The translations under genes were made by a program, and so were the position numbers. Shown piece after piece: positions 4,662 through 16,063 of a stretch of DNA of 26,300 bases. This stretch comes from a virus. Position 1 is the stretch's first letter; every line of letters starts with the position of its first letter. The stretch covers positions 1 to 26,300 of IMG/VR virus record IMGVR_UViG_3300042875_000284; one strand, written 5' to 3'. Below the pieces are notes generated by a model. That model saw only the letters and a list, made by a program, of their open reading frames with translations, was not told where the DNA came from and made no database searches.

Positions 4662-5615
4662 TTAATCTTGAAACTTTGCCATCCTTTCGGCAAGCAATTC
4701 TTGAAGCCTGTCATTATACGCTTTGTCCTTTGCCGCTGGGCTTGTCGTTTGGTATGCCGTAAATATCTTTGAGGCTTGTCCATAAATGTTTGCTATGGTG
4801 AAATTTGCCCTCAGCCATTTGTCATTCAAGTTCCACGCGGCTTGTATAAACACCTTCAATGCCTCAAGGCTATCGCCCTGCCTGTCTATTTTGTCAATGT
4901 ATTTCAGGAGATTTCCCATTTGCCCTGCATCTTTGGGCATCATAATATAATGTCCATTTTGATCCGTGGGATACGCGGCACCGGATAAGGATTCAAACGT
5001 TTGGCAAAACACGGTGAAGGCGGCGTAAGTGGGGGAGGGCGTCTTTTCTTTTTCTTTTTTCGCGGAACTTTTTTCTTTTTCTTTTTCACTTTGCAACTTA
5101 GCAACAACGGTAAAGGGGTTTACTTTGGGGGTTTGGACATTTGGAAAATCATTTGAAACTTTTGTAAAGTCGGTAAAATCTGAAGGATTTTCAACTAATA
5201 CTTGAATATGGTTAATACTTGAATTGGCTAATACTTCAAGGGGCTTCATTGGTGAAGGCGTCCCCCCTTCATGGATGAATATCCCCCCCTCTTCATCATT
5301 AAAGGGGGAGGTATCCAAATTTGACATATTTTTACCCGTTACAAATACGCCGATTAACTCCGTGGTAATCTTATAAAGGTTACTTGTTTGGCTTCCATCA
5401 GGTCTAAAGCGTTGTTTTACGCTTATAATTTTCCGTGTTACCAATTCATTTTTAACCCGTAAAATCTTTGAATCGCTGAATCCAGATTGTTCAATCAATT
5501 TTTTGTTTGAAGGGAAACACATACGGTTTTCATTCATAAAATTTACAATGTGACAAAGGAGAAACAACTGGTCAGGCGTCACCTGCGGCAAAAGTCTTGT
5601 ATCAATGTTTATCAT
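4662..5615 (-). CDS. Winged-helix replication initiation protein
   Basis: The 317-residue product has an N-terminal winged-helix domain (about 8-88) of the phage replisome-organiser type: DQLFLLCHIVNFMNENRMCF, SNKKLIEQSGFSDSKILRVK (recognition region), then a wing with KQRFRPDGSQTSNLYKIT. A low-complexity linker follows (about 95-190), with a strongly charged SEKEKEKSSAKKEKEK part encoded by long pyrimidine runs in the plus strand. The C-terminal domain (195-317) is helical and may contact the helicase or its loader. Such proteins bind the phage origin and start replication. The gene is preceded by a three-hairpin leader (5624-5720) ending in a terminator-like stem about 14 nt before the ATG, so its expression may be attenuated. 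Confidence 0.72.
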   Translation of the reverse strand: MINIDTRLLPQVTPDQLFLLCHIVNFMNENRMCFPSNKKLIEQSGFSDSKILRVKNELVTRKIISVKQRFRPDGSQTSNLYKITTELIGVFVTGKNMSNLDTSPFNDEEGGIFIHEGGTPSPMKPLEVLANSSINHIQVLVENPSDFTDFTKVSNDFPNVQTPKVNPFTVVAKLQSEKEKEKSSAKKEKEKTPSPTYAAFTVFCQTFESLSGAAYPTDQNGHYIMMPKDAGQMGNLLKYIDKIDRQGDSLEALKVFIQAAWNLNDKWLRANFTIANIYGQASKIFTAYQTTSPAAKDKAYNDRLQELLAERMAKFQD

Positions 5616-5623
5616 AAGTTTAT

Positions 5624-5656
5624 AAAAAAACCCAGCAGGTGCAAGGCTACTGGGTT
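5624..5656 (-). terminator. Terminator-like hairpin (hairpin A of leader L)
   Basis: On the minus strand AACCCAG (5656-5650) pairs with CTGGGTT (5635-5629), loop of 14 nt, followed by a T run to 5624. It ends only 8 nt before the ATG of the winged-helix gene, so it may end the helicase transcript or act as an attenuator. Its loop carries CTTGCACCT, complementary to the loop of the hairpin at 5687-5720. Confidence 0.75.
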
Positions 5657-5720
5657 AGATGAAACAATGCGGATATTGTCCCGAAGTTCTTTTGAATGAC
5701 TTGCACCTCGTTCAAAAGAA
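5624..5720 (-). ncRNA. Three-hairpin leader L with complementary (kissing) loops
   Basis: In minus-strand order: hairpin C (perfect 10-bp stem TTCTTTTGAA/TTCAAAAGAA, 5720-5711 with 5696-5687, loop 14 nt), hairpin B (GGGACAAT / ATTGTTTC with two G-U pairs, about 5683-5662), hairpin A (see 5624-5656). The C loop holds AGGTGCAAG (5708-5700) and the A loop holds CTTGCACCT (5645-5637): nine complementary bases, able to form a kissing complex or an alternative pairing that would compete with hairpin A. The same layout, with other loop sequences, occurs at 8164-8256. I know of no named RNA family that fits. Confidence 0.7.
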
Positions 5721-5738
5721 TGATTAAAGATAAAGAAT

Positions 5739-6344
5739 TTATTTCATTTCCTTCAGGTATAAAGTAAGGTCTTGCACTAATTTTTCAATCTGATTAATTT
5801 CAAGATTATTTATTGCCTTAGTTACAAAATCTTCAGCCTTGCATTTTACAACAACTGTTCTATCTTTTAACCCAGCTATTTCCATGCCTTGCTTTGCGCT
5901 TATTTCACGGTTAATTACCTTAGTGGCAATGTCAGGGGCATCACGTTTAAGGCGTTGAATTTGGTATTGTCTTGAAGTACCTTTATCAATTTGAGGAGGT
6001 GATATATAACCTCCTTTATTGTGTTGATTAATGCCGTGTTTAGGCATTGCATTAATTTGTTCTTCATGTTCCTGCCAAATATTAGGTTTTCGCTTACAAT
6101 GTGCTTTTATAACATCAATGTCCCAGCCTAATCCCCAGGGCACTTCGTACCTTGCAAATTCTACATAAGTTGTAAAAGTTTTAGGAGACAAACCATAAGG
6201 GTGTCTGTTACTCCAAAAGTCTTTAAATGAATATAAAGAATCAAAATAGGTCATGGCTAAACCAAAACTGTTTATACCATTTATGTCAATAAGTTTATTG
6301 TAAACTTCCTCTGGATTAGTGCTTAGTGAAATTGCTGATGTCAT
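5739..6344 (-). CDS. Hypothetical protein with helix-turn-helix-like segment
   Basis: A 201-residue protein. The N-terminal part (1-100) is not recognised (LSPKTFTTYVEFARYEVPWG, KRKPNIWQEHEEQINAM). Residues 121-160 read KGTSRQYQIQRLKRDAPDIA then a segment ending AKQGMEIAGLK, a pattern seen in DNA-binding proteins where a helix-turn-helix follows an LKRD-PDI stretch. The C-terminal 30 residues are helical and acidic. The start at 6344 lies inside the 3' end of the helicase gene (29-bp overlap), so the two are translated together. It shares the helicase gene's high A+T content, and may be its DNA-targeting partner; that is inference. Confidence 0.62.
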   Translation of the reverse strand: MTSAISLSTNPEEVYNKLIDINGINSFGLAMTYFDSLYSFKDFWSNRHPYGLSPKTFTTYVEFARYEVPWGLGWDIDVIKAHCKRKPNIWQEHEEQINAMPKHGINQHNKGGYISPPQIDKGTSRQYQIQRLKRDAPDIATKVINREISAKQGMEIAGLKDRTVVVKCKAEDFVTKAINNLEINQIEKLVQDLTLYLKEMK

Positions 6345-8154
6345 CGTTAATGATTTGTAATTTTTTATTTAATAATCTTAAGTCCATACAAGTTTTATGA
6401 TCCTTAATATTTGCAGCTTCATTGTATTTATAATGAGCGTTTTGATACTCAGTGTAAATACCTAACCTTATAGCATATCCAACTCTTTTGTGAATTTCCT
6501 TTTTTACAAGTTTGATTTTTTCGTACTTAGGAATTTCATCTATTTTATTGTTTTCCTGAGGTTCATCTTTCTGAATATTCCTTGCAATCATATTTTCAAA
6601 AATACTTGCTAAAGCATAGTTTAAATCTTTGACTTGGTTTAAAGCATCTATTTCTTGGTCAGTAAACTTATATCCATTGTTTATAATACCATGATTTCCA
6701 GCTATTATATCGTCGAATAAAGTTTGTATTGTTTTAGGTTTTCTTTCTAAACCTTCACTTAGTCCAGTATTAATCCTTTTATTTTCGTCTATTACAAAAT
6801 GCTTATAGCCTGCTTCAAGAGTTTCTGCAACCTCAGTAAATAAAGAAAAATTAGGATAATAAAAATAGCAATGGTCTATTGCATTTTGATAAACCTTGCA
6901 ATTTCTTACACCTCTACCCATTACTTGTTCAAAGTATGTCCTGGTTGTAATATTGTTTAAATACAGGATAACACGTATTTGAGGAATGTTTACTCCTTCA
7001 GAAACCATTTGAACAGTCACAACCCAATGCTTATTATTATTTCTAAATTCTTTTATTGTTTCGGTAGTTGAATCCGCGTCACTTGTAATAATAGAACAGC
7101 TTATATTTTGATTTTGTAGATTACTAAAAATACTTTTAGCATCTTCAATCGTGTTGGCAATAATTAAACCTTTTGCCTCAGGATAATAAGTATTTCTTAT
7201 TCCTTTTAATTCTTTGTTAGCTTGATTAAAAGCAATGTCAATAAAATTACTATTTCCATTTGAGGCATCTATTATTTGATTTAAATATTTTTTATTCTCC
7301 TCACCTATTATAACGCCACCTTCTCCATTAATAATTACATCAATAGGTCTAAATGAAGTAGGGCAACATATACGATCTTTTACACTTTGAGCATACGTGT
7401 AAGAATAATCTGTTTCAATTTCCCAACCATCAATATCATTAGATTTTGTTTCCTTATATTTTACAAAAGGTATTTTACTATTATCGCTTCTAAAAGGAGT
7501 TCCTGTTAAACATAAAATTACCCCAGCATTCTCACAAATATTTTCAAGTTCAATACCCCAGCTTCCAGAATCAGAAGCATGGTGATGTTCATCTAAAACT
7601 ACAATGGTTTTATTTGTTATCTTGTTTTTTAATGAATTAGTATTGTTTTTTAAAATTTGATAGCAAAGGGAAACACCATGAAAGTCAGGTTTCCAATGAT
7701 ATTTAAACAAATAATTTGCATCAATTTCAAGGTTAAATTTTTTACATTCAATAGCCCAATCCGTTTTAATAGCATCTTTTGGACTAAAAATAACAACATC
7801 AAATCCATCGTCAACGAAATTTTTTATAATTGACGAAGCCCACAAAGTTTTTCCTGAACCTACTCCAGCATGAAGTAAAAATACTTTGTTAGATTTAATT
7901 TCCTCATAGAATTTTTTAGTGGCTTCTATTTGCCATTGTCTCGGTTTAAATTCAAACATTTTATTAGATTTTTTTAAGTTACAAGTTGGACATAATGCCT
8001 GGGCATTATTTAATGAAGTTATCCCTCCTTTGCTAAAAGGTATAACGTGGTCAGCATGCCAAAACCTTGGAAGGTTGCATTTACACAACTGGCATTTGCC
8101 GTCAGCAAGTCTGTATAAAAATGCTTTTTCTGAATCGGAGTAATTCCTTTTCAT
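6316..8154 (-). CDS. HNH nuclease - SF2 helicase fusion
   Basis: The 612-residue product starts at the ATG at 8154-8152 (MKRNYSDSEKAF); an in-frame extension to 8265 would translate through the leader hairpins and is rejected. Residues 18-60 form a cysteine-bound HNH domain: CQLC (21-24), HADHVIPFSKGG (33-44), N50, CPTC (55-58). A superfamily 2 helicase follows: Walker A GVGSGKT (97-103), DEHH box (188-191), TGTP motif III (217-220), MVSEGVNIP motif V (383-391) and QVMGRGVR motif VI (410-417). The C-terminal 190 residues are helical and unassigned. The protein could unwind and nick DNA during replication or recombination, or attack foreign DNA. It is strikingly A+T-rich compared with flanking genes, suggesting separate origin, and has its own structured leader. 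Confidence 0.85.
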   Translation of the reverse strand: MKRNYSDSEKAFLYRLADGKCQLCKCNLPRFWHADHVIPFSKGGITSLNNAQALCPTCNLKKSNKMFEFKPRQWQIEATKKFYEEIKSNKVFLLHAGVGSGKTLWASSIIKNFVDDGFDVVIFSPKDAIKTDWAIECKKFNLEIDANYLFKYHWKPDFHGVSLCYQILKNNTNSLKNKITNKTIVVLDEHHHASDSGSWGIELENICENAGVILCLTGTPFRSDNSKIPFVKYKETKSNDIDGWEIETDYSYTYAQSVKDRICCPTSFRPIDVIINGEGGVIIGEENKKYLNQIIDASNGNSNFIDIAFNQANKELKGIRNTYYPEAKGLIIANTIEDAKSIFSNLQNQNISCSIITSDADSTTETIKEFRNNNKHWVVTVQMVSEGVNIPQIRVILYLNNITTRTYFEQVMGRGVRNCKVYQNAIDHCYFYYPNFSLFTEVAETLEAGYKHFVIDENKRINTGLSEGLERKPKTIQTLFDDIIAGNHGIINNGYKFTDQEIDALNQVKDLNYALASIFENMIARNIQKDEPQENNKIDEIPKYEKIKLVKKEIHKRVGYAIRLGIYTEYQNAHYKYNEAANIKDHKTCMDLRLLNKKLQIINDDISNFTKH

Positions 8155-8163
8155 AGTAAAAAT

Positions 8164-8198
8164 AAAAAAACCCACAAAGGCACTACTCTTTATGGGTT
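8164..8198 (-). terminator. Terminator-like hairpin (hairpin A of leader R)
   Basis: On the minus strand AACCCATAAAG (8198-8188) pairs with CTTTGTGGGTT (8179-8169) in an 11-bp stem with one U-G pair and an 8-nt loop, followed by seven T (8170-8164). It ends 9 nt before the helicase ATG. The U-G pair makes sense only for RNA from the minus strand. It may terminate upstream transcription or attenuate the helicase gene. Confidence 0.8.
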
Positions 8199-8256
8199 TA
8201 ATGAGGTAAATGGTTTCCTCAAATACCTTTTGCTGGGTAGTGCGTCCTGCAAAAAG
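8164..8256 (-). ncRNA. Three-hairpin leader R with complementary (kissing) loops
   Basis: Same layout as leader L. Hairpin C: CTTTTTGC (8256-8249) with GCAAAAGG (8233-8226), one U-G pair, 15-nt loop. Hairpin B: GAGGAAA with TTTACCTC (one bulge, about 8221-8204). Hairpin A with T run: 8198-8164. The C loop contains GCACTAC and the A loop contains GTAGTGC, seven complementary bases. Compared with leader L the loop sequences have changed completely while complementarity between the loops is kept, which is covariation support for a loop-loop contact. A TATATTTG box (8270-8263) lies just upstream, so the RNA could start at hairpin C. Confidence 0.72.
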
Positions 8257-8262
8257 TTTAAG

Positions 8263-8270
8263 CAAATATA
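8263..8270 (-). promoter_or_regulatory. Possible -7 promoter box for leader R and the helicase gene
   Basis: TATATTTG on the minus strand fits the Bacteroidota -7 consensus TAnnTTTG. A start about 7 nt downstream would fall at the base of hairpin C. No TTTG box is found at the usual -33 distance, so the call is weak. Confidence 0.35.
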
Positions 8271-8281
8271 CAAAATATTAT

Positions 8282-8374
8282 TTACTTTCTCCTCCTTTTT
8301 TTCCACGGCGGATTCCCCAGTGCGCTTTGCATTTCCATGTATTTTACCACGGCTGGCGGCGTTTCGTATGTCAC
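8282..8374 (-). CDS. Possible small basic-tailed ORF (GTG start)
   Basis: A 30-residue frame with a GTG start reads VTYETPPAVVKYMEMQSALG and ends in a basic WKKRRRK tail. It lies in the same frame as, and just after the TAA of, another short frame at 8384-8437 (MANFIKEALDKVFTEGN). The two could be halves of one small protein broken by the TAA that sits at the centre of the palindrome 8371-8400. Coding character is suggested by the amino-acid make-up only; there is no recognised family. Confidence 0.3.
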   Translation of the reverse strand: MTYETPPAVVKYMEMQSALGNPPWKKRRRK

Positions 8375-14154: not shown

Positions 14155-15374
14155 AAGTTAGTAACAAATATCAAGCCCTTTGGCAACCGCAGACGCGTTA
14201 CTTCCTCATCACTGGTGGGCGTGGTTCGGCAAAGTCATTCACCGTGGGGCTTTGGGCTTGCAATATGTTACTTGCTTACAAGAATTGGAAGGTGTTGTTT
14301 ACCCGTTACACGTTATCAAGTGCAAATATTTCCGTGATTCCTGAGTTCCGTGAAAAGATTGATTTGCTTGGCGTTGGTGACGAGTTCAATATGACCAACA
14401 CGCAAATTGGTCACAAGGTGACAAAGAGTGAAATAATCTTTTCCGGTATTAAAACAAGTTCAGGAAATCAAACGGCAAAGTTAAAGTCGATACCCGGGTT
14501 AAATGTTTTCATTGTCGATGAGGCTGAGGAATTTGTAAGCGAAAAGGACTTCGATACCATTGACGAATCCATTCGTATGCCTGATACTCCTAACCTTGTT
14601 ATCCTTGTCATGAACCCGCAAGACGTGGAGCATTGGATTTGGAAGAGGTGGTTTGAAAAGTCGCATCGCATGGAGACGATTGATGGGCATTCGATCCCGA
14701 TAAGTACGCACCCAGATATAACCCACATTCATACCACGTACCTTGATAATTACCATAACATAAGCAAGGATTACATTGCAAAGATTGAGGCAATTAAAAG
14801 CAAGTCACCTGAGGCATACGCGCACAGGTTTTTAGGGAAGTGGCTGGATAAGAAACAGGGCGTAATATTTCCAAACTGGGTGGAGGGCGAATTTGATACA
14901 AGCCTACCTTTTGCCTACGGGCTTGACTTCGGATTTTATCCAGACCCCTTGGCACTTGTCAAAGTTGCGGTTGATAACACGGCAAATAAGATTTATGTGA
15001 AGGAAATCATTTACGAACAAAGCCTTTCGTATGACATGGTTGTAACAAAGATTAGGAATGAGGTTGAAACCGATGCCATGATTGTTGCGGACACGAGCGA
15101 ACCACGTTTGATTGACGCGCTTATCTCAAATGGTATCAATGTACATAAGACGGAAAAGTACGCTGGCAGCGTGGTTGACGGAATAAAACGAATGCTTGAT
15201 TTTACCATTGTGGTTACTGAGGAATCGTATAATTTAAAGTTTGAATTAAGGAATTATATTTGGAATGACAAGAAATCTTCAACGCCAATGGATATGCATC
15301 AGCACGGGCTTGACGGAGTTCGCTATGCCTCGCTTCGTTTAATGCAAGGCTCGGATTCACTTGCGCACAACTAA
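14145..15374 (+). CDS. terL: Large terminase subunit (PBSX/Terminase_3 type)
   Basis: The 409-residue DNA-packaging motor has an ATPase domain with Walker A GGRGSAKS (24-31), an adenine or coupling region (FTRYTLSSANISV) and Walker B VFIVDEAEEF (Asp125, catalytic Glu126), with MNPQD (156-160) as motif III. The RNase H-like nuclease domain carries the three acidic residues Asp261 (YGLDFGF), Asp316 (VADTSEP) and Asp390 (HGLDGVRYA). All catalytic residues are present and length is normal. It cuts concatemers and pumps DNA into the prohead together with the small subunit and portal. Unusually, neither portal nor capsid gene follows. Confidence 0.95.
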   Translation: MEIKVSNKYQALWQPQTRYFLITGGRGSAKSFTVGLWACNMLLAYKNWKVLFTRYTLSSANISVIPEFREKIDLLGVGDEFNMTNTQIGHKVTKSEIIFSGIKTSSGNQTAKLKSIPGLNVFIVDEAEEFVSEKDFDTIDESIRMPDTPNLVILVMNPQDVEHWIWKRWFEKSHRMETIDGHSIPISTHPDITHIHTTYLDNYHNISKDYIAKIEAIKSKSPEAYAHRFLGKWLDKKQGVIFPNWVEGEFDTSLPFAYGLDFGFYPDPLALVKVAVDNTANKIYVKEIIYEQSLSYDMVVTKIRNEVETDAMIVADTSEPRLIDALISNGINVHKTEKYAGSVVDGIKRMLDFTIVVTEESYNLKFELRNYIWNDKKSSTPMDMHQHGLDGVRYASLRLMQGSDSLAHN

Positions 15375-15381
15375 AAAAACT

Positions 15382-15600
15382 ATGACACCAAAAGAAAAAG
15401 CAGAGGAGTTAATTGATAAGTTCAGGAATGAAATAACCTCATTTTTAGGCGATAACATGAAAAAAAATAATGCTAAAAAATGCGCCTTGGTTGCCGTGGA
15501 TGAGTTAATAAAAATCCATTATCTTTTAACGGCTACACATGACACATCCCCTTCCATTAATTATTGGAAAGAAGTTAAACAAGAACTTGAAAAATTATGA
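15382..15600 (+). CDS. Small tandem-paralogue protein, copy 1
   Basis: A 72-residue protein starting at the ATG at 15382 (MTPKEKAEELIDKFRNEITS). It shares with the next two genes an N-terminal MTxxEKAxEL helix, a middle helix of the CALVAVDELIK type and a C-terminal YWKEVKQELEKL. The three follow each other with 4-bp ATGA overlaps. Such MTPKEKAEEL proteins are frequent in Bacteroidota phages and prophages; their function is unknown. Confidence 0.7.
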   Translation: MTPKEKAEELIDKFRNEITSFLGDNMKKNNAKKCALVAVDELIKIHYLLTATHDTSPSINYWKEVKQELEKL

Positions 15601-15824
15601 CCCCGAAAGAAAAAGCAGACGAATTATTTACCCATTATCACAACCTTATTCAAAGCATCGGAGGCGAACTTGGGCAAGAGATCCTTGTCTCCATCCTTGC
15701 AAAGCAAAGCGCCTTGTATGCGGTACGGGAGGTCTTGAAACAAAAGTGGAGAATTATGGTACCTGGCAGCGAAGCTGAATATTATTGGTGGGAAGAAGTT
15801 GAACACGAAATAGAAAATATATGA
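15597..15824 (+). CDS. Small tandem-paralogue protein, copy 2
   Basis: A 75-residue paralogue: MTPKEKADELFTHYHNLIQS, middle SALYAVREVLKQK, C-terminal YYWWEEVEHEIENI. It is closer to copy 1 at its N-terminus than elsewhere, as expected of old tandem duplicates that have diverged. It overlaps both neighbours by ATGA, so the three are translated together and may form a mixed helical complex. Confidence 0.7.
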   Translation: MTPKEKADELFTHYHNLIQSIGGELGQEILVSILAKQSALYAVREVLKQKWRIMVPGSEAEYYWWEEVEHEIENI

Positions 15825-16063
15825 CGGCTCAGGAAAAAGCAAGGGAATTGCATTTGATAATTTACGACACATTGCCTTATCGACACGTGGTAACGGGTGA
15901 ATACGACAGTTGGCTTGAGGCAAAGAAAATAGCTTTGCTTTTGACCGACATAATCATAAGTAACAATCAAACGATTTGCGGACAACTTGGCTCAGACGTG
16001 GACGAAAACACGGCGTACTGGTGCGAAGTGGAATTGCATTTAAAAAATATCATAACGAAATGA
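15821..16063 (+). CDS. Small tandem-paralogue protein, copy 3
   Basis: An 80-residue paralogue, the most diverged: MTAQEKARELHLIIYDTLPY, middle KKIALLLTDIIIS, C-terminal AYWCEVELHLKNI. The conserved frame is the EKAxEL start and the aromatic-x-E-V-x-x-x-x-x-x-[IL] end. Unknown function. It overlaps the next gene by an ATGA overlap. Confidence 0.68.
   Translation: MTAQEKARELHLIIYDTLPYRHVVTGEYDSWLEAKKIALLLTDIIISNNQTICGQLGSDVDENTAYWCEVELHLKNIITK

Follow-up and report, generated by a model that had tools for sequence, protein, structure and literature searches.

The leader RNA described here occurs twice on the minus strand of a 26,300-nucleotide (nt) virus record (IMGVR_UViG_3300042875_000284, positions 1 to 26,300), the whole of which was analysed and is called the window below. 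Its closest described counterparts are the rep attenuators of pT181 and pIP501, the repZ pseudoknot, the cobalamin riboswitch and the put RNA of phage HK022. In the pT181 and pIP501 attenuators, too, the leader of a replication gene contains an attenuator-like hairpin and RNA loops make contact; however, it is an antisense RNA that contacts their leader, whereas the contact found here is intramolecular and many non-rep genes follow it. The repZ pseudoknot, which belongs to the ColIb/IncB family and is controlled by the antisense Inc RNA, lies upstream of a replication gene start and governs its expression, but that pseudoknot is required for translation, whereas in our leader it is a terminator-like hairpin whose loop takes part in the pairing, and Shine-Dalgarno sites are lacking in the likely hosts. 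In the L5-L13 interaction of the cobalamin riboswitch, a kissing loop joins an upstream hairpin to the expression-platform hairpin, as in our leader, which, unlike the riboswitch, has no evident ligand-binding core: it consists wholly of three hairpins, its invariant alignment columns lie in stems or the T run by our reading, and its downstream genes are unrelated. The put RNA is of similar length (about 70 nt), lies just downstream of an early promoter, acts as RNA alone without a gene-specific ligand and is present twice in the HK022 genome (PMC9378689). It is built of two stem-loops with sequence shared between copies, whereas our leader, about 90 nt long, has three hairpins with freely varying kissing loops, the last hairpin being terminator-like and near the ATG. 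The three-hairpin fold, in which hairpin 2 is a short bridge and the loops of hairpins 1 and 3 pair with each other, is close to certain from comparative sequence evidence.

The first-pass annotation of the window had described two minus-strand leaders with the same order of hairpins, a T run and an ATG, and both were recovered where it had placed them. The complementarity that it reported between the first and last loops holds in both copies, but its 9-nt match in leader A includes two stem bases of hairpin 3, and the conserved contact is 7 base pairs (bp). The features of the two leaders, all on the minus strand, are listed below.

5720-5624, minus strand: leader A, three hairpins and a T run, then ATG
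5725..5732, minus strand: -7 promoter box TATCTTTA of leader A (letters checked), predicted +1 at 5720
5687..5720, minus strand: hairpin 1 of leader A, arms 5720-5711 and 5696-5687, 14-nt loop, kissing strand GTGCAAG at 5706-5700
5661..5682, minus strand: hairpin 2 of leader A, from fold and alignment
5629..5656, minus strand: hairpin 3 of leader A, terminator-like, loop 5646-5639, kissing strand CTTGCAC at 5645-5639
5624..5628, minus strand: T run of leader A behind hairpin 3, from the sequence
4662..5615, minus strand: gene after leader A, HTH_36 / replication initiation protein, 317 amino acids
8257-8164, minus strand: leader B, three hairpins and a T run, then ATG
8263..8270, minus strand: -7 promoter box TATATTTG of leader B, predicted +1 at 8258
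8225..8257, minus strand: hairpin 1 of leader B, 15-nt loop (single-sequence fold), kissing strand GCACTAC at 8243-8237
8202..8221, minus strand: hairpin 2 of leader B, from a single-sequence fold
8168..8199, minus strand: hairpin 3 of leader B, terminator-like, loop 8187-8180, kissing strand GTAGTGC at 8186-8180
8164..8167, minus strand: end part of the T run of leader B behind hairpin 3, from the sequence
6316..8154, minus strand: gene after leader B, HNH endonuclease plus ResIII/DEAD helicase, 612 amino acids

The RNA fold z-scores of the two leaders are -4.14 and -4.37 on the minus strand and -3.74 and -2.00 on the plus strand. A strict descriptor, combining hairpin 1, the kissing match, hairpin 3, the T run and an upstream TAnnTTT box, gave two matches in the window versus none in 300 dinucleotide shuffles; without the box condition, there were three (the third was not identified) versus a shuffle mean of 0.013.

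Relatives were gathered by protein searches with the genes behind both leaders and by the hairpin 1 pattern. A first descriptor that demanded loop complementarity gave 51 matches, of which an obvious false one (L112) was removed and 50 were aligned (alignment A2). The covariance model R1, built from the three stems of A2 with the kissing pairs left out, was rerun on the relatives, including loci retrieved with two further proteins (97 of the 104 second-round loci were scanned, L277-L283 being excluded as repeats of known contigs). The 82 R1 matches retained, from 63 virus sources hand-picked to limit repeats, make up alignment A5 with 68 distinct rows; 19 of the sources carry two copies and the others one, and many are fragments. 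The covariance-model search of related phages, which had been proposed as a test of the first annotation, thus returned homologues at 82 places with their loop complementarity conserved. Counted copies score at least 55.7 bits, the divergent pair L120 and L143 (GC content of 55%; L120 is not among the A5 sources) 38.3 bits, and all else at most 33.3 bits, mostly opposite-strand shadows together with the truncated L014 copy and the chance-like L095, L134 and L149. One more match (L122 10731-10826, 59.3 bits) lies beyond the locus examined and was not checked. Among 40 chosen virus records, 32 matched R1 at E <= 0.01, each, by our reading, with one or two leaders and otherwise shadows; the eight records without an R1 match had all entered through the hairpin 1 pattern.

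Comparison of these sequences shows the leader to be an RNA family of a clade of uncultured phages, with presumed Bacteroidota hosts. For the window itself, the nearest terminases among cultured phages are those of Riemerella (45.8% identity) and Nonlabens (44.6%) phages; this likeness and the Bacteroidota-type promoter box suggest a Bacteroidota host. Two unusual loci were noted among the relatives. In L014 (117-235, minus strand), a truncated leader, included in no count, has kept part of hairpin 2, hairpin 3, the T run and the ATG, with hairpin 1 replaced. In the GC-rich phage L143 (11464-11660), the divergent leader is followed by a second TAnnTTTG-like box ahead of a Thy1 gene.

With the kissing helix added to the model, 97.4% of the cells of A5 pair and two-sided changes occur in 31 of 34 pairs; the kissing helix alone has 98.9% of its cells paired and two-sided changes in all seven pairs, which upholds the earlier observation that the loop sequences vary while their pairing stays. 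None of 500 shuffles reaches any of five covariation measures, and pairing drops to 38-50% of cells when the partners are shifted by 1-3 columns. A direct comparison of the hairpin 1 loop with the hairpin 3 loop plus two columns on each side gave at least seven contiguous Watson-Crick pairs in 67 of the 68 rows and six in L318; L295 and L302 pair one base out of register. Across rows of different types, among the about 19 loop types of the family, the longest match is mostly 3-5, most commonly 4, and reaches 6-8 in 147 of 4172 comparisons. The A2 sequences had been selected on their loops, but the 18 A5 rows that lie outside A2 all keep the contact, 17 of them with at least seven pairs and L318 with six. 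It is also retained in the divergent L120, which has a different hairpin 2 (GTAACGG with CCGTTAC). Many one-sided stem changes run through G-U pairs of the minus strand and, together with the minus-strand z-scores, bear out the view that this is a structured RNA read on that strand.

The contact joins the last 7 nt of the mostly 8-nt hairpin 3 loop (8 letters in 62 of 68 rows, 7 or 6 in the others) to 7 nt of the mostly 14-nt hairpin 1 loop (14 letters in 65 of 68), the two hairpins being spaced by 24-31 nt. Since the kissing strand is flush with the 3' arm of hairpin 3, and the base past its other end pairs in just 6% of the 50 A2 rows, the contact stays within the loop and can form while hairpin 3 is closed. 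The outermost pair of hairpin 1 is unformed in 18 of the 68 rows and the next pair is formed in all of them. Eight of the 110 columns of A2 are invariant. A nested K-K' antiterminator was considered and rejected, since in every one of the 68 rows it is the less stable fold, by 2.7 to 22 kcal/mol (on average, -22.5 versus -34.3 kcal/mol for the fold). Because the pairing fits in the loop of a closed hairpin 3 and the nested fold is less stable, the contact looks like a tertiary support of hairpin 3 and not a competing antiterminator; that loop pairing switches the terminator, as proposed earlier, is conjectural.

Both ends of the leader are held at nearly constant distances from expression signals. 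A TAnnTTT box, sought within 6-16 nt, begins 10-13 nt ahead of the first model position in all 68 rows. In Flavobacterium johnsoniae, the T of this box is placed at -12 (in -12/-11 numbering; PMC6847099), so the predicted +1 falls at or within two bases of the first pair of hairpin 1. Upstream of the -7 box (e.g., window 8290-8271), a clear TTTG -33 element is missing; the sequence there is A-rich and carries a weak GTAA-like motif that begins about 15 nt ahead of the box. At the other end, hairpin 3 is GC-rich and is directly followed by the T run, with at least five T in the first eight positions in all 68 rows. It has the form of an intrinsic terminator or attenuator, that is, a GC-rich hairpin with an adjoining U run, the run being interrupted in a few rows. 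The start codon follows hairpin 3 after 12-19 nt in 60 of 68 rows and after 21-32 nt in seven, and no ATG was found in one cut copy. Positions -13 to -10 from the ATG are 67-96% T in 67 leader genes versus 9-19% T and 60-71% A in 149 other mechanically called open reading frames (ORFs) from 19 sources; since other ORFs are A-rich there, the T run sets the leader genes apart from the usual start region of these phages.

The genes behind the leaders are diverse, and the initial impression that the leader is specific to helicase and replication genes did not hold, many unrelated genes following it. Pfam domains of the downstream products include HTH_36 initiators, N6_N4 methylases, Dam, HNH_3, MUG113/T5orf172 (which we take to be GIY-YIG-like) and HNH plus helicase, as well as a ParB-like match under the cut-off and Thy1 (ThyX) in L143, 112 nt away; five of the 16 downstream proteins of relatives scanned against Pfam had no match. 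Their common theme is DNA replication and modification, and there is no single product that could regulate all of them. The loop type GTAGCAG precedes five gene families, and the MINIDT-type initiator is preceded by three loop types; promoter and leader therefore behave as an exchangeable cassette. The free loop sequence, the conservation of pairing alone and the unrelated downstream genes suggest that the leader acts through its shape, or via a factor common to all its genes, and not through a gene-specific ligand.

The explanation that we favour, while holding it only tentatively, is that the leader is a cis-acting transcription attenuator whose terminator hairpin would be held by the kissing contact. 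Hairpin 1 would be made first, from the predicted +1, with its loop waiting; it would capture the loop of hairpin 3 as the latter emerges from RNA polymerase, and the 7-bp kissing helix, stacked flush on the 3' arm of hairpin 3, would nucleate and hold the terminator hairpin. Part of the transcripts would then end at the T run and the rest would continue into the gene. The terminator role of hairpin 3 is suggested by its form and T run, and the aid given by the kissing contact by the geometry and the poor nested alternative. Several points weigh against this attenuator. Termination at hairpin 3 is predicted from sequence; the T run is broken in L013, L023 and L313, which keep the kissing contact; the tight spacing between hairpin 3 and the ATG would be unneeded by a pure attenuator; and the divergent copy of L120/L143 has a poor T run and a gene start 112 nt downstream. 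Moreover, a terminator right behind a promoter needs a cause for read-through, and no regulator was found.

A 5'-end protector and translation platform, an alternative that we consider doubtful, would also account for the fixed distances at the two ends. In this case, a fold starting at or within two bases of +1 would hide the 5' triphosphate, the ribosome would find only a short U-rich segment free ahead of the ATG, the kissing contact would lock the fold, and any downstream gene would do. The Bacillus pyrophosphohydrolase, which is not a Bacteroidota enzyme, favours single-stranded 5' ends and requires at least two unpaired nucleotides according to the review PMC3997798, the reference list of which names 5' stem-loops stabilising mRNA. 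The unformed outermost pair of hairpin 1 in 18 rows argues against this role, and hairpin 1 alone would suffice for the 5' end, leaving the GC hairpin and T run unexplained. It is also disfavoured by the T run standing at -13 to -10, where other genes of these phages are A-rich; in F. johnsoniae, an A at -3 is a positive determinant, positions -6, -12 and -13 also being discussed (PMC6847099).

The position of the leader would likewise suit processive antitermination as by HK022 put, in which it would bind elongating RNA polymerase so that its own and later terminators are ignored. We regard this as unlikely. Like putL, the leader stands just downstream of a promoter, and the occurrence of two copies in some sources recalls the HK022 arrangement, but the shared sequence of put copies has no counterpart in its freely varying loops, its invariant columns are confined to stems or the T run in our reading, and a terminator-like hairpin belongs to its own fold.

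Far less probable is that the loop pair serves as an identity tag acting in trans, with a short terminated leader providing immunity or copy control as antisense RNAs do; attenuation of rep by antisense RNA is known in plasmids (PMC8383071). The loop types differ between phages, and in none of the 19 two-copy sources do both leaders have the same type, but this is within chance (random pairing, P = 0.16), so that avoidance of equal loops within one phage is not established, and each leader already pairs its two loops internally. As a general rule, diversifying selection on loop sequence was rejected: among 54 of the 56 distinct rows of alignment A3 (L120 and the L023/L049 row being dropped), loop divergence is at most that of the hairpin 3 stems in seven of eight divergence bins, the exception being the 0.03-0.06 bin (10 pairs), where loops diverge about three times as much as hairpin 3 stems (0.100 versus 0.035). 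Finally, a DNA-level feature merely resembling RNA (operator half-sites or a recombination site) is hardly credible, for although the two loops are inverted copies in DNA and the leaders combine freely with different genes, the three stems covary independently, many one-sided changes pass through minus-strand G-U pairs and the plus strand has the weaker fold z-score.

We rate the leader RNA as a new family of a known kind, the structured 5' leader or attenuator. The Rfam 15 scans, which covered the window leaders, L143, L023, L032, L304 and L317, matched no family to any leader, in agreement with the first-pass annotation, which could not match it to a known one. With fast filters, the window gave no match, although the same filters missed a transfer RNA (tRNA) scoring 40.5 bits; with permissive filters, window 5560-8320 gave two small nucleolar RNA matches (E 1.9) far under threshold and outside the leaders. 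Both matches in L143 11420-11640 were under threshold, and L023, L032, L304 and L317 had two tRNAs and nothing else at the gathering threshold. No RNA in the literature searched was recognised as this leader, the list of unnamed candidates in PMC8040213 not being compared; thousands of candidate structured RNAs are reported there, and an unnamed counterpart among them is possible.

Outside the phage clade, the hairpin 1 pattern was found at no fewer than 119 loci of bacterial genome contigs, none of them a family member as judged from descriptor output. R1 had no match in 395 Bacteroidota genomes or in 294 genomes from a single family, where stricter filters and the few candidates scored per genome mean that blanks prove little; the same holds for the Rep protein, which had no match in the 395 Bacteroidota genomes, and none was found for it among cultured phages. 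One leader compared as DNA had four matches among cultured phages, those of Rhodococcus and Synechococcus, all weak and partial (E 0.1-0.4) and not folded, and none among plasmids. The descriptor found no leader in 41.1 of the 46.7 kb of a Riemerella phage and 32.9 of the 35.7 kb of a Nonlabens phage. A wider descriptor gave 66 strict matches over 3.06 Mb of retrieved DNA. Of these, 11 listed rows did not follow the family pattern, although three of the 11 come from family loci: L035, and L037 and L122 on their opposite strands. The bacterial contig L185, with a box and an ATG, was taken for a chance match; it has a 75-nt linker and no relatives were seen.

Elsewhere in the window, four consecutive tRNA-like elements lie at 9820-9130 on the minus strand, none of them called by ARAGORN. 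By our reading, they have common acceptor-like ends (G)CAAGG...CCTTG(C) and unrecognisable anticodon regions, and one has two T-arm-like pieces. Rfam with permissive filters reported one tRNA at 40.5 bits, one at 27.7 bits (below threshold) and T arms like those of transfer-messenger RNA in two. Odd tRNAs also occur in the relatives L016, L051 and L032. Three related small ORFs with similar starts stand in tandem at 15361-16063 of the window.

Gene control in Bacteroidota phages has, to our knowledge, been little studied, and the leader adds to it a well-supported RNA family with a loop-loop contact backed by strong covariation. As a possibility to which we attach considerable doubt, it would be a self-acting leader of a new design, the hairpin made at +1 kissing the terminator hairpin's loop as that hairpin emerges and so timing or metering whichever gene follows, without ligand, antisense RNA or dedicated protein, and the phage clade would use it as an interchangeable promoter-leader cassette. 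If the kissing contact does tune termination, this would be a metering of gene expression by leader RNA that is free of both protein and ligand, and the about 19 natural loop pairs could serve for tests or for insulated leaders.

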